Source: Verrucomicrobiaceae bacterium
Lineage (GTDB): Bacteria > Verrucomicrobiota > Verrucomicrobiia > Verrucomicrobiales > Verrucomicrobiaceae
Direction of reading: 5' to 3'
NCBI GenBank assembly: GCA_027490195.1
Contig: JAIXYN010000032.1
Span: forward strand, 1-64,000
DNA: 64,000 nt
The notes under the pieces were generated by a model, which worked only from the letters and a program-made list of their open reading frames with translations, was not told the origin of the DNA and made no database searches. Below are positions 2,034-49,195 of the stretch, one piece after another. Both the position numbers and the translations under genes were made by a program. Numbering within the stretch: the stretch's first letter is position 1; the number at the start of each line of letters is the position of its first letter.

Positions 2034-3203
2034 TCACCAGCTCGCCACCACCTCATACGCATACCCGCGCAGATACTCAGTCTCTGGAATCGTCGCCAGA
2101 ATCGGATGATCCGGCCGCTGCGTGTACGTTGCCACCCGCCGCAGTGTCTTCTTCGCATCCACCGCCGCATCCGTGATGCTGCTGTGGAATTCTTCGGCGC
2201 TGACGTGGTGGGAGCAGGTGAAGGTGGCGAAGATGCCGCCGGGCTCGAGCATCTTCATGGCGCGGAGGTGGATCTCCTTGTAGCCGCGGAGGGCATCGCG
2301 CACGGAGCTTTTGGTTTTGGTGAAGGAGGGGGGATCGAGGATGATGAGGTCGTAGCGGGCGGCGGCGGCTTCGTTGCGCTTGAGGAAGTCGAAGCAGTTT
2401 TCGGCGATGCAGTTGATCTGCACACCGGCGATGGCGGCGTTTTGTTTGGCGACTTCGGTGGCGGATTCGCTGATGTCCACGGCGGTGACTTCGCTGGCTC
2501 CGGCGAGGGCGCAGGCCTGGGCGAAGCCGCCCTGATTGGAGAAGCAGTCGAGGACGCGGCGGCCTTTGGCTAGGGCGGCGACATGCTGGTAGTTATCTAG
2601 CTGATCCAAGTAGAGGCCCGTCTTCTGGCCTTCGAGGAGGTCGGCGTGGAAGGCGCTGCCCTGGTAGCGAACGACGAAGGGGGCGGGGGACTCGCCACTG
2701 ACGACGCCTTTGATCTGCTCCATGCCTTCAGCTTTGCGGACGGCACCTTCGTTGCGCTCCACGATGCCGCGTGGCTTGAGGGTGTCGTTGAGGGCCTGGA
2801 TGATGAGGTCCTTCCGCAGATCCATGGCAAGGGTGAGGGTCTGGATGACGAGGAAGTCGCCGTAGCGGTCGATGATGAGGCCGGGGAGGCCGTCGGATTC
2901 GCTCCAGACGATGCGGCAGAGATTGAGGTCCACGCCGGCCGCTTCGCGCACGGTGATGGCGCGCTGGATGCGGCGGGTGAAGAAGTCGAGGTCGAGGTCC
3001 TGGCGGCGGTAGGAGAAGAGGCGTGCAGAGATCTGCGACTGGGGATTGTAGATGGCGCTGCCAAGGGGCTTGCCGCGGACGTCTTGGAGATGGACGACAT
3101 CGCCGGGCTTGGGATCGCCGAAGCGCTTCTGGATTTCAGTGGCGTAAACCCATAGGTGACCGTGGAAAAGGCGGGCGCGGGGCTGGACGGTGAGGGTGGG
3201 CAT
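2034..3203 (-). CDS. Class I SAM-dependent rRNA methyltransferase, RlmI-like (PUA + methyltransferase)
   Basis: 389 aa; N-terminal PUA-like region, VLDCFSNQGGFAQACALAGASEVTAVDIS, LDPPSFTK motif. Confidence 0.9.
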   Translation of the reverse strand: MPTLTVQPRARLFHGHLWVYATEIQKRFGDPKPGDVVHLQDVRGKPLGSAIYNPQSQISARLFSYRRQDLDLDFFTRRIQRAITVREAAGVDLNLCRIVWSESDGLPGLIIDRYGDFLVIQTLTLAMDLRKDLIIQALNDTLKPRGIVERNEGAVRKAEGMEQIKGVVSGESPAPFVVRYQGSAFHADLLEGQKTGLYLDQLDNYQHVAALAKGRRVLDCFSNQGGFAQACALAGASEVTAVDISESATEVAKQNAAIAGVQINCIAENCFDFLKRNEAAAARYDLIILDPPSFTKTKSSVRDALRGYKEIHLRAMKMLEPGGIFATFTCSHHVSAEEFHSSITDAAVDAKKTLRRVATYTQRPDHPILATIPETEYLRGYAYEVVASW

Positions 3204-3255: not shown

Positions 3256-3306
3256 AATGACGAATGAGTAAATCCGAATGACGAAATAAGCCCGAAGGCC
3301 GAATGG
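3256..3306. repeat. AATGACGAA / CATTCGTCATT repeat, left arm
   Basis: aatgacgaatgagtaaatccgaatgacgaaataagcccgaaggccgaatg; reverse complement recurs at 3911-3943. Confidence 0.8.
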
Positions 3307-3343
3307 GGGACTGGGGCTATTGGTGGCTAGACCTTGGTCATTA

Positions 3344-3910
3344 TACTGCCGCGCATCACCAACTTTCAAAAGAAACGCGTCTCGAACGGAGTGGGTGCTG
3401 TGCGCCCGTCTATCGGCCACGACAAGGACGGCGGACCTTTTTGAGCGACTGCGATGCTACAGACCCGAAATCACGGACCCGCACAGCGGTTCCCTACCAG
3501 CGCTGAGGCACGCGCTGCTCTGGATGGTAGAGATGCGCTGTGCGCGTCCCTGGAATCCTTCGTCCCAGCACGGGCTGCGGCCTCATCGTTCTCCCCCTTT
3601 TCAAACTTCTCTGACTTCTGCTGTCGAAGGCGCCAAGGACGGCGAACCTTTTTCAGCGCCTGCGACGCGACAGACCCGGAATCACGGACCCGCACAGCGG
3701 TTCCCTACCAGCCTTGCGGCACGCCTTGCTCTGGGTGGTAGGGATGCGCTGTGCGCGTCCGTAGAATCCTTCGTCCCAGCACGGGCTGCGGCCTCATAGT
3801 TCTCCCCCTTTTGAAACGCCTCCGACTCCGGCTGTCGTGGGTATGTCGGTGCATCGCCCATCTGCCGAGCAGTCATTCGCAGAATGAAAGTGGGTGATGC
3901 GTGGCAAGTC
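3344..3910. mobile_element. MITE-like element, copy A, with ~25-bp TIRs and an internal ~211-bp tandem duplication
   Basis: Left TIR tactgccgcgcatcaccaactttca; right end tgaaagtgggtgatgcgtggcaagtc is its imperfect reverse complement; interior homologous to 48835-49195. Confidence 0.8.
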
Positions 3911-3943
3911 TATTTCGACATTCGGGTTTACTCATTCGTCATT
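3911..3943. repeat. CATTCGTCATT repeat, right arm
   Basis: tatttcgacattcgggtttactcattcgtcatt, near reverse complement of 3256-3290. Confidence 0.8.
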
Positions 3944-44393: not shown

Positions 44394-44540
44394 AAATGAC
44401 GAAGTCCGAAATACGAATGACGAAATAACTCCGAAGCGCGAATGCCGAAGGCTACCCCATACGTCTGGCATGGCTCGCTCTGAGATCGGCACTAGGACTT
44501 CGACATTATTTCGTCATTCGGATTTACTCATTCGTCATTG
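44394..44540. repeat. AATGACGAA/CATTCGTCATT repeat pair (inverted arms, intact spacer)
   Basis: aatgacgaagtccgaaatacgaatgacgaaata... and ...tatttcgtcattcggatttactcattcgtcattg. Confidence 0.8.
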
Positions 44541-45304: not shown

Positions 45305-45375
45305 GCGTCGAGATAGAGCGGGGAATGGATGCTAGCAACCGGGAGCGCGAGTATTCTACTCGCCTGCCGCTCACC

Positions 45376-45520
45376 GTACGTTGTTCACGCTTCAGCGTGT
45401 TCCCCCCGCCGCGCACCGTACGTTGTTCACGCTTTAGCGTGTTTCCCACCGCCTGAACACGCTAAAGCGTGAACAACGTACTCAAACCCACCTGAACACG
45501 CTAAAGCGTGAACAACGTAC
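45376..45520. repeat. Four-unit palindromic repeat array (two forward, two inverted)
   Basis: gtacgttgttcacgctttagcgtgtt at 45376 and 45418; reverse complement at 45456 and 45495. Confidence 0.95.
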
Positions 45521-48500
45521 TCAAACCCGCGCCTTCAGCGCCTTCTCCGCATCCTCCAGCTCGGGTATCCGCCGCCCATAGCCGCATGCCACGATCAGCT
45601 TCCGCGCCTCCGCCAGATCCTTCTCCGGCGACTCCCACGGATACTTCACCTCTGGACCGTTGACTCCTTGACCCGTCTTGACGGCGATTCCGAACAAGCG
45701 ACAGCGCGTGAGCAAAATGTCCGCCATGAACAGCCGCATCGGCCCGCGCTCGGCGATTTCCCAGGCTTCGTCCAGGTCGCCCTGCGCGCTGTCGGGGCCG
45801 GCTTGCTCGGAAGTCAGTGCCCCGGTGAGACTCCGCTGCCAGGCGCGGGTGAGGAGGCCGAGGACGAGTGGGTCTTGCTCGCCAGCGCGGCGGAGGCCGG
45901 AGACGGCGGCGTCAATGTCGAATGACGAATGACGAATGTCGAAGTTCCCGAGGATCGCCTCGTAGAGCGCGGCGCGGCCCAGGGTGAGGTGGTCGAGGGC
46001 GATGCTGAGGAGCCAGTTGTTTTGCTCGGCAATCTTGAGCGCCTTCGCCGCGCGCTCGGAGACGGCGCGGAGCTTGGTAGCCAGATCGCTATCGGTGGGC
46101 GCGACAGCGTCCTGGAGTGCGGTGGCAGAGCCCTGAAGGGGCGGCGACACCGCTTTCGCCGGAGCCGTTGACTCGGTGCCATGACCTGCCGCCGAGACAC
46201 CTCCGGCATCGGGATGGGGTTCCTCAATTTCACTCGGCCTAGCGAAAGCGGTGTCGCCGATGCCTGGGTGGCCCCTGGCATCTCTGCCACCGCATTCGCT
46301 TCGCGGCTGCGCAGCCAAGACGCTTCGCGACATTCGCAGCATGACTTGCCACGCGGCACGCTCCGCCTCCGCCAGGAGCAGGTCGCAATAATTGAAGCCT
46401 TGAAGCGAATACAGCAGCGGGTAGTCGGGCTGGCGCTCGGCCTGCATCTGCTCGGCCTCGCGGAAGCGCGCCTCCGCCTCGGCCCGGCGGCCCGCCTGGT
46501 GCAGGGCGTCGGCATGGGTCGTGCGCTTGCTATACCGCTGAAACGAATCGCCGCTGCGGTCGGCATAGGTCACGGACTCCTCGGCGTCCCCCATCGCCCC
46601 GGCCACCTCGCCCAGCGTCAGATCCAGCTCGCTCAGGTTGCTGGCATGGATGGCGGCCTGTTTCCAATTCTCCTGCTTGACGCACATATCCAGTCCAGCC
46701 CGCATCGGTTCGGTGGCTTCTTTCAATCGCCCAGCAGCTCGGAGGCAGAAGGCAGCACCTTGAAACAACCATGCAATATCCGCCGCAGTCACAGTCTCGA
46801 CAGGTTTGCTCCATGGCTTCTGAAAGAAGCACGCGAAAGCTCCGAGGTGTGCCCCGGACATCCCTAGCTTGTTAATGCTGTAAGCTTGGCGTCTGTCGAT
46901 GCGAGCAAACAATACCTGGTCCAATGCCTCCTGCTGCAAGCCCGCCTGGCAGCCGTGGGCCACGGCTTGATAGAGCGGTTGGAGGGCTTCGAGCGTGGGC
47001 TCGTCGCCTTCCTGCGTGCTCTCGCAGAGGTGTTCGTAGAGCCGACGGTGGGCTTCGCGCCAGGCAGAGTAGCTATCTCGCTCCGCGAGATGATCTGGCG
47101 GCTCCGCTGCGGCATGGCGCTTGGAATCATCGAGTGTCTTCTCATTGGCGGTAGCAGCAGGCTCCTCTCGCGGAGCGAGAGGGCTACTTTTCAGCCTTTC
47201 CGCGAAGTATTCGCGGATGAGCGGATGCGCGTCGAGGGAGGCCGGAAGTGGGAACGCGGCAGCCGGAACGGAAACGGTCTCCGGGCTGACGGAGAGCAGT
47301 TTTGCGGCGACCAGCGATTCGAGACTGCAATTCCAATCTTCCTCGGGCAGGCCGGTGAGCGGCTCGGTGAGGCCGGTGATGGCGGGGGCGGCGAGCAAGG
47401 CCGCGAGGCAATCGGCGGTGGCGGGCCGGTCAAAAAGGCCCATGAGGCGGAGGATGGCCAGTTCGCGGCGCGCCTCGTCGCTGCCGTCCTCCATCCACCG
47501 GGCGTAGGCGGCCATCGCGCGAAAGGCGTGGCCGTTGTCGGTCTTCTGGCTGGCCTTGGCGAAGGTCACGCGGTCGCGCTTGCGGATGTCGCCACCGAAC
47601 GCCTTCTTCAAAAACGAGCCCATGATGTGGAGCGTGAGCGCGTGGCCGTCCACGTCCTCGACGAGCTTTTCAAACTCGTTAACCCGCTCGCTATTCGCGT
47701 CGCCGTCGTGGAGCGGGAGGTTCCGGCGGTCGCTGCCGGTGACGCCGTGGGCTTTCAGCAACTGCACGCCCGCAGCCCGCGCCAGACGTGTGAGCTTTTC
47801 CTCCCGCACGGTGCGGCCAAGGAAGGAGCGCAGGTCAGGCAGCGCATAGCGGGTGGTGACGACGCACAGGCCGTGGCTGGTGGCGGCCAGTCCTTTGAGC
47901 AGCGCGCTCAGTCCCTGGTCCTTGAGTTCGCCGGGCGTGGGCGAGGTGGGCGCGTATTGCAGCGGCTCGAGGCCGTCGAGGATGAGCAGCGCGCGCCGTT
48001 CGCCGACGAGCTGGGCCATTCGCCGGCCCTTCTCGAACGCGCCCTGCGCGCTGCCCGCCATGGCATCATCGCCAAAGAAGGCGAGGGCCTCGGCGATAAA
48101 CAAGTCGGACGAAACGGCGGTCTGCTCGCGCGTGCCCTGGCTGTAGAAGGACCACGCAAAGACGGCGTCGCAGCCGGGCCAGCTGTCATGGGCCAAGCTC
48201 GCAGCCCACTTGGCTACCAGGGACGTTTTTCCTTCGCCACCCAAGGCCACGAAGGTGAGCACGTACGGGCGGTTCGATTCTGCGCGCACGGCCTGACCCC
48301 AGGCATCGGTGAGAATCTTCGTCTCCGCTTCGCGCCCGATGAGTTCAGCCGGAGCGTATTTGCCGATGCGGGAGATGTCGATCCTGCGTGCCTGGCGAGT
48401 GCGGGGACGAAAGTCGATGACATCGCGGTCTGCAAAGATCGGAGGAACGGGGCAGTCCTCGATCCAGACGGGGATGATCTTCTTCGAAAGGCTGCGTGCG

Positions 48501-48733
48501 TATTCGACTTCGCGCTTCACCCAATCCGATGTGTTGGAGGAGGCAGTGATGACAACGAACAGTGTATCGGCTTTCGTTATGCCCTTCTCGATCTCCGGCC
48601 AGAGCTGCTCGTCTGGCTTGATGGCACTGGAGTCATTGAAAACATCATCGAAGCCAGCGGCACGTAGGAACGATTCCATTTCTGTGACGTAAGAGTCATC
48701 GACAGTGCTGTGGGAAACGAAAGCGCTACGCAT
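45521..48733 (-). CDS. TIR-STAND (NTPase)-TPR-like protein
   Basis: MRSAFVSHSTVDDSYVTEMESFLRAAGFDDVF...SLSKKIIPVWIEDC (TIR); FVALGGEGKTSLVAKWAA Walker A; RRALLILDGLEPLQ Walker B; TPR-like C-terminal half. Confidence 0.88.
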   Translation of the reverse strand: MRSAFVSHSTVDDSYVTEMESFLRAAGFDDVFNDSSAIKPDEQLWPEIEKGITKADTLFVVITASSNTSDWVKREVEYARSLSKKIIPVWIEDCPVPPIFADRDVIDFRPRTRQARRIDISRIGKYAPAELIGREAETKILTDAWGQAVRAESNRPYVLTFVALGGEGKTSLVAKWAASLAHDSWPGCDAVFAWSFYSQGTREQTAVSSDLFIAEALAFFGDDAMAGSAQGAFEKGRRMAQLVGERRALLILDGLEPLQYAPTSPTPGELKDQGLSALLKGLAATSHGLCVVTTRYALPDLRSFLGRTVREEKLTRLARAAGVQLLKAHGVTGSDRRNLPLHDGDANSERVNEFEKLVEDVDGHALTLHIMGSFLKKAFGGDIRKRDRVTFAKASQKTDNGHAFRAMAAYARWMEDGSDEARRELAILRLMGLFDRPATADCLAALLAAPAITGLTEPLTGLPEEDWNCSLESLVAAKLLSVSPETVSVPAAAFPLPASLDAHPLIREYFAERLKSSPLAPREEPAATANEKTLDDSKRHAAAEPPDHLAERDSYSAWREAHRRLYEHLCESTQEGDEPTLEALQPLYQAVAHGCQAGLQQEALDQVLFARIDRRQAYSINKLGMSGAHLGAFACFFQKPWSKPVETVTAADIAWLFQGAAFCLRAAGRLKEATEPMRAGLDMCVKQENWKQAAIHASNLSELDLTLGEVAGAMGDAEESVTYADRSGDSFQRYSKRTTHADALHQAGRRAEAEARFREAEQMQAERQPDYPLLYSLQGFNYCDLLLAEAERAAWQVMLRMSRSVLAAQPRSECGGRDARGHPGIGDTAFARPSEIEEPHPDAGGVSAAGHGTESTAPAKAVSPPLQGSATALQDAVAPTDSDLATKLRAVSERAAKALKIAEQNNWLLSIALDHLTLGRAALYEAILGNFDIRHSSFDIDAAVSGLRRAGEQDPLVLGLLTRAWQRSLTGALTSEQAGPDSAQGDLDEAWEIAERGPMRLFMADILLTRCRLFGIAVKTGQGVNGPEVKYPWESPEKDLAEARKLIVACGYGRRIPELEDAEKALKARV
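46115..46297. repeat. Inverted-repeat element inside the TIR-STAND coding region
   Basis: Arms gagtgcggtggcagag / ctctgccaccgcattc plus inner perfect ggcgacaccgctttcgc / gcgaaagcggtgtcgcc. Confidence 0.8.
47069..47187. repeat. Second inverted-repeat element inside the TIR-STAND coding region
   Basis: gtagctatctcgctccgcgaga / ctctcgcggagcgagagggctac; each arm itself palindromic. Confidence 0.75.
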
Positions 48734-48834
48734 GCGAATTTTGCCGTAAGGGTAGGTGCATGAAAGCAGCAGCACCTCAGAAGGCAAGGCATTATGAAAT
48801 GTTGCCGACCTCGCTTTTCAATGCCTTCTCGTTG

Positions 48835-49195
48835 AACTGCCGCGCATCACCAACTTTCAAAAGTCCCCCAATCTATAGAAATGGACTCTGGGTTTCCGTT
48901 GATCGAGCGCGACAAGGACGGCGAACCTTTTTGGGTGCCTGCGTCGTGATAGACCCGAAAACTCGGACCCGACGCAGCGGTTCCCTACCAGCGCTTGAGG
49001 TGCCGCGCCACACAGAGCTGGTAGGGATGCGCTGTGCGCGTCCCTGGAATCCTTCGCCCCAGCGCGTGCTGCAGACTCACCCGTTCCGCACCTTTTCAAT
49101 CGCTCCGCCTCCGGTTCGTGCGCTATGGACGCACATCAACCATCTACCCAAGAAGACCCGCGCAAAAAATGAAAGTTTGTGATGCGCGATAGTAT
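48835..49195. mobile_element. MITE-like element, copy B
   Basis: Left aactgccgcgcatcaccaactttca, right tgaaagtttgtgatgcgcgatagtat; interior homologous to copy A. Confidence 0.8.

Follow-up and report, generated by a model that had tools for sequence, protein, structure and literature searches.

REPs and REPINs are believed to rely on a RAYT of their own, an enzyme that the literature calls a domesticated transposase, and the route by which they reach new sites is still debated. Among short mobile repeats of a different kind, RUP of S. pneumoniae is an IS630-related MITE, and the Correia/NEMIS elements of Neisseria are TA-ended (PMC2229807). The element at 3344-3910 (copy A) of the window, the whole stretch of 64,000 nucleotides of a Verrucomicrobiaceae genome that was analysed, resembles these MITEs in being short and mostly non-coding, with inverted-repeat ends (TIRs) that have TA at their tips, and it resembles RUP in having a TIR that is common to the MITE and an IS630 element (PMC2229807). 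Unlike in RUP and Correia/NEMIS, the interior is a RAYT-associated REP array, and the elements measure 350-800 bp. Because a TIR of IS630 type is combined with a REP-built interior, the element is in all probability a non-autonomous chimera, in which an IS630-family MITE frame encloses RAYT-associated REP arrays.

Both kinds of component, the IS630 MITE and the RAYT/REP array, are known, and their combination in one element is a variant; a limited literature search found no paper describing REP arrays inside an IS630 MITE. GTAG repeats of this phylum are named for one species only in the literature found (PMC3733652). As in REPINs and the tandem REPIN clusters that adjoin RAYTs (PMC3116915) and in REPtrons (PMC3733652), there are two inverted REPs per unit with a GTAG tag, and the units are ordered in tandem, include flanking sequence and stand beside a RAYT gene. 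In contrast to REPINs and REPtrons, the unit is longer (182-211 bp), most single copies have inward tags, and many copies are enclosed in IS630 TIRs. The overall plan of an inverted-repeat leader and tail around a variable number of tandem units recalls the BrickBuilt MITE of Porphyromonas gingivalis, whose units differ in being 23 bp long, in not being REPs and in having no RAYT link (PMC4596501).

Copy A is 567 bp long and contains no gene; its TIRs measure 25 bp, and between them lie two 211 bp cores in tandem (Table 1). An earlier note, made from the letters alone, had proposed a MITE-like element with exactly these boundaries, and TA stands outside both ends. Its inverted-repeat ends were recovered by inverted-repeat search as arms of 22 nt each (3347-3368 and 3885-3906, 91% complementary); its two tandem copies with a period of ~211 bp correspond to a direct repeat of 207 nt that is 89% identical at a spacing of 211 (3420-3626 and 3631-3837), and to 2.0 copies of period 211 in the tandem-repeat analysis. 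A transposase ORF was looked for in copy A and none was found, in agreement with the note; the 211 nt period is not divisible by 3. Similarity search also confirmed the homology that had been claimed for copy B, which has a single core. A second inverted repeat (AATGACGAATGAGTAAATCCGAATGACGAAATA, 94%) at 3256-3288 and 3911-3943 encloses copy A; a further copy of this repeat type is found at 44508, and the L059 element is placed likewise beside one.

Table 1. Positions of the parts of copy A and copy B in the window
Feature	Position	Strand	Basis
TA target-site duplication, left, copy A	3342..3343	.	sequence; TA rule from empty sites and 13/13 IS copies
Outward promoter-like site TTGAAA-18-TATAAT (11/12)	3340..3369	-	faces start of methyltransferase-like gene 2034-3203(-)
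Left TIR TACTGCCGCGCATCACCAACTTTCA	3344..3368	+	sequence, inverted-repeat search
MITE left arm, common to other copies	3369..3422	+	comparison of copies
Core unit 1, 211 bp	3423..3633	+	direct/tandem repeat
GTAG-tagged REP, Z type (GTAGGGAACCGCTGTGCGGGTCC)	3475..3497	-	REP pattern matches
Variable spacer between facing GTAG tags; position of RAYT gene in REPtron copies	3498..3526	.	split cores, column variability
GTAG-tagged REP, Y type (GTAGAGATGCGCTGTGCGCGTCC)	3527..3549	+	REP pattern match
One complete REPIN-orientation unit (GTAG ... CTAC) across core 1/core 2 junction	3527..3708	.	
Core unit 2	3634..3837	+	direct/tandem repeat
GTAG-tagged REP, Z type	3686..3708	-	REP pattern match
GTAG-tagged REP, Y type, exact consensus	3738..3760	+	REP pattern match
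MITE right arm	3838..3884	+	comparison of copies
Right TIR, 2 mismatches and small indel at tip	3885..3910	-	
TA target-site duplication, right, copy A	3911..3912	.	sequence
Copy B: same MITE, one core	48835..49194	+	
REP of copy B, Z type	48965..48988	-	
REP of copy B, Y type, exact consensus	49021..49043	+	REP pattern match

The genome, a 7.0 Mb draft, holds several dozen copies of the element: 58 matching stretches were obtained with copy A as query and 88 with copy B, and the TIR core pattern occurs at 41 sites versus 5 for the reversed control, numbers well above what chance would give. With its TIRs, lack of coding capacity and multiple dispersed copies, the family has the attributes of a MITE. 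Two-ended elements hold one or two cores; in L075 the core is deleted, and L074 and L076 hold an unrelated palindrome instead. A core is present in 9 of the 12 complete elements of this genome, and longer core arrays were seen adjoining single ends. The TIR was found in 12 of 39 genomes of the window's genus, with one relative (G012) especially rich, and the core in 11 of 56 genomes searched (own genome counted), all of the same genus.

Among IS630 transposase loci identified with PF13358 in ten relatives and in the own genome, none had these TIRs, and the own genome yielded no complete IS bearing this TIR; the IS partner came up only by scanning the order (291 genomes) for the TIR itself. Another genus of the same family harbours a complete IS (L272 in G172) with TIRs ~1.07 kb apart end to end, of which the better one (TATACTCCCGCGCATCACAAACTTTCA) has 1 mismatch to the MITE TIR and the other 5 mismatches over the 27 nt pattern. 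Its two overlapping frames match HTH_33 (E 1.7e-7) and DDE_3 (PF13358, E 7.6e-20), the signature of IS630. Because this element shares the TIR and has a DDE_3 transposase, the repeat can be classed as a MITE belonging to an IS630-family IS. In a sister genus, 13 near-identical IS ends were found in one genome (G217), where TA precedes 13/13 and the flanks are otherwise different, and this genome carries what its sequence indicates to be a recently active multicopy IS of IS630 type. The same TIR stands beside a related transposase N-terminus in two genomes of the window's genus (G026 and G028). The G217 ends (L259-L271) are located close to the ends of contigs, as is usual for recent multicopy IS elements in draft assemblies.

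For the insertion site, the flanks of ten insertions were joined, in a query that left out the copy B and L074 sites, and the genus was searched for junction-spanning matches. Among the many matches, three sites in sister species, those of L058, L075 and L061, were clean enough to read, all with TA at the junction: GGCC-TA-ATTGG versus filled GGTTTATG[..]TATGATTGG, CACT-TA-TATC versus filled CACTGATA[..]CATATTTC, and CTCT-TA-ACC versus filled TACTTATA[..]TATCACC. The insertions are thus polymorphic. The empty site is restored when TAC...GTA and one TA are taken out, which defines the TIR as TACTGCCGCGCATCACMAACTTTCA and the target as TA; duplication of TA and insertion into TA by a TIR whose first letters are AT are sequence-equivalent. 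The empty site of copy A itself is not clean and cannot be read, because both flanks belong to a different repeat (AATGACGAATGAG). A direct search for longer target-site duplications, covering 2-10 nt at any offset, gave none above shuffled flanks. The comparisons by which the earlier note had proposed to check its MITE reading all bear it out: sister species have empty sites, the boundaries of other copies match, and a transposase with matching TIRs exists in a relative.

The ends of the element have a further property. Outward from each of them, TTGAAA or ATGAAA is followed by 18 nt and then by the TA of the TIR, the TA of the target and RY, such that TIR ends plus inserted TA (TTGAAA/ATGAAA-18-TATARY) could act as portable promoters; putative divergent promoters have been described for Correia elements (PMC2229807). 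A score of at least 9/12 is reached by 40 of 120 ends, versus 2 of 120 for the shifted control. Host selection could then be keeping the elements mainly as mobile promoters, which we regard as unlikely. The presence of outward promoter-like sites speaks for this reading, as does the more frequent facing of gene starts by ends scoring at least 8 (starts to ends 30:26, versus 10:30 for weak ends; Fisher p = 0.006), a bias that is only a lead because the strong/weak split was chosen after the data had been seen and the gene calls come from a home-made gene caller. Over all element ends, however, there is no preference for gene starts (40 starts, 56 ends), and the -10 sequence partly mirrors the TA target.

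Turning to the interior of the chimera, an alignment of 106 core units shows highly conserved blocks together with a variable spacer. The core, left unidentified in the earlier note, is a RAYT-associated GTAG-REP doublet: each unit contains two GTAG-tagged REPs in inverted orientation, GTAGGGATGCGCTGTGCGCGTCC and inverted GTAGGGAACCGCTGTGCGGGTCC. They fit the definition of a GTAG-tagged REP as an imperfect palindrome of 20-40 bp with GTAG at the 5' foot, present in high copy number and mostly extragenic, with 121 matches at up to 3 mismatches in the own genome versus 0 for the reversed control. The REPs are the least variable part of the core (mean entropy 0.25) and the spacer is the most variable (0.88). 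The canonical REPIN orientation, with tags at the outer ends, was seen in one solitary copy (C72); the GTAG tags of the MITE cores face inward, unlike those of canonical solitary REPINs, which is a point against the chimera.

In the two REP stems, 5 of 16 pairs are changed on both sides, compared with 0.3 for shuffles (0/500), and all five belong to the Z REP; this covariation is support rather than proof, because related sequences weaken the shuffle control. Mutual information on the core alignment was dominated by lineage effects, and RNAalifold on the whole alignment returned fragments only, later recognised as the Y REP. The earlier note had described a structured core with a long hairpin, which in fact arises from base-pairing between the two inverted REPs. 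Hairpins are real, the 83-87 nt hairpin stretches of the window copies having z = -2.8 to -7.1 versus dinucleotide shuffles (the 211 nt units as wholes are of ordinary stability, z = -0.9 and -1.4), but the long hairpin was rejected as a conserved structure, its covariation being no higher than in shuffles; by pair counts, two small REP hairpins are preferred to one long one. It is very improbable that the core is a gene for a structured RNA (a riboswitch, a ribozyme or an sRNA) which rides on the MITE and is selected for its transcript: stable hairpins and strongly conserved blocks would suit such a gene, but an Rfam search of the core matched no family, on which ground a riboswitch or ribozyme was rejected, the long hairpin lacks covariation, the stems that do covary are REPs linked to a RAYT, and neither strand is favoured as RNA, because G-U and A-C types of single change are similar in number (14 and 12).

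Array units are often mutual nearest relatives (L064, L041, L050), which fits local duplication; copy A has units resembling those of further multi-core MITEs, in keeping with transfer of an entire array. Some core units are split exactly at the spacer, and in three species (G000:C58, G012:C76, G011:C99) the gap is occupied by a conserved ORF of ~155 aa with core arrays on both sides; REPs also flank the G015 homologue. A RAYT-like gene is flanked by these REP arrays in the own genome and three relatives. The protein contains the motifs GDFLLMPDHLHFF and YMxxNPVRAGLV, with HxH and Y invariant, and matches the REP-associated tyrosine transposase model NF047646 with E 1.2e-18, its score of 67.4 bits lying under the NCBIfam curated cut-off of 80 bits; it has no Pfam match. 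It also matches E. coli TnpAREP (PDB 4er8, solved with REP hairpin; E 5.9e-16), and 4er8 is the best PDB match of its AlphaFold model (pLDDT 75.7; E 1.6e-7, TM 0.67). Sequence motifs and predicted structure point to a Y1 HUH fold with HxH and Tyr, as in TnpAREP, from which the protein differs in its 25% identity in structural alignment and its score below the cut-off; it represents a divergent RAYT-like group. Close homologues occur in five genomes only (G000, G011, G012, G015, G024), and six core-rich genomes (G001, G020, G022, G027, G029, G030) have none, perhaps due to MAG incompleteness or loss. The low score, the missing Pfam match and this patchy occurrence weigh against the chimera, as do the lack of a complete IS with the TIR in the own genome, the unreadable empty site of copy A and the sequence equivalence of the two readings of TA. 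The gene between split arrays is not always a RAYT: in two species, a PQQ-type beta-propeller fragment lies within split REP cores (G000:C11 and G027:C78; L062:10171-10989 and L042:260-880).

The distribution of the cores bears on a reading without a second mobile system, in which the core is a degenerated remnant of the MITE's own autonomous transposon that underwent internal tandem duplication in the manner of BOX or BrickBuilt. A variable number of units within a constant TIR frame, as in BrickBuilt (PMC4596501), is what it would lead one to see, but it is already contradicted and hardly credible: cores are widespread without TIRs, also around the RAYT gene, and, the TIR apart, do not visibly resemble the IS interior. 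Movement of the whole TIR-bounded element by a RAYT-type enzyme instead of an IS630 transposase, modelled on the described “TIRtrons”, RAYT-like genes with long flanking TIRs that form repeat families (PMC3733652), is very improbable, as the TIRs match an IS630-type IS, TA stands at the junction, and all RAYT loci examined are without these TIRs.

The two parts of the chimera may work as follows. The 25 bp TIR is that of an IS630-type insertion sequence; the MITE inserts at TA and duplicates it, and would be moved in trans by the DDE transposase of such an IS. The interior, which does not stem from the IS, is an array of 1-4 RAYT-associated repeat units, in each of which two GTAG-tagged REP hairpins face each other over the variable ~29 nt spacer, with ~130 nt of conserved flanks; in the REPtron copies the spacer is taken by the RAYT gene, encoding an IS200-like HUH transposase. 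The RAYT would be expected to bind REP hairpins in single-stranded form and to nick them, probably including the present ones, and may thereby drive REP movement. The REP module presumably entered the MITE frame and now travels with it, and arrays may grow by RAYT action or replication slippage. More tentatively, and less likely than not, REP arrays of this lineage might have two routes of spread, RAYT acting on single-stranded hairpins and the IS630 transposase on the double-stranded MITE frame, with the IS630 TIR frame as a general carrier of palindromic repeat cargo, which besides REP cores would include at least two unrelated palindromes (L074/L076 and L101/L102/L109). IS630-MITE-packaged arrays would provide REPs with a second, testable route and offer a natural setting in which to compare what becomes of REPs that have a RAYT and of those that do not; the element links the MITE and REP repeat literatures, and with them two unrelated jumping mechanisms, across a Verrucomicrobia lineage.

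Several other features were seen in the window and its relatives. Beside copy B, 45521-48787 encodes a large protein with, by eye, a TIR-domain-like N-terminus followed by an NTPase-like and a repeat region, which could be a defence-type STAND protein; tandem 39-42 bp repeats with CACGCTTCAGCGTG-type palindromes lie at the 3' end of this gene (45366-45528). Copies of two further families of palindromic repeats (GCCGAGCCTTGGCGAGTGCTC and CCGGTTAAAAACCAGCGCTCCCAG) are found at 1263, 29083 and 42991 of the window and, elsewhere, inside the same IS630 TIRs. A nearly empty element at L118:1867-1935 consists of two TIRs ~20 bp apart, and three IMG/VR viral contigs (L149-L151) contain the 18 nt TIR core exactly.
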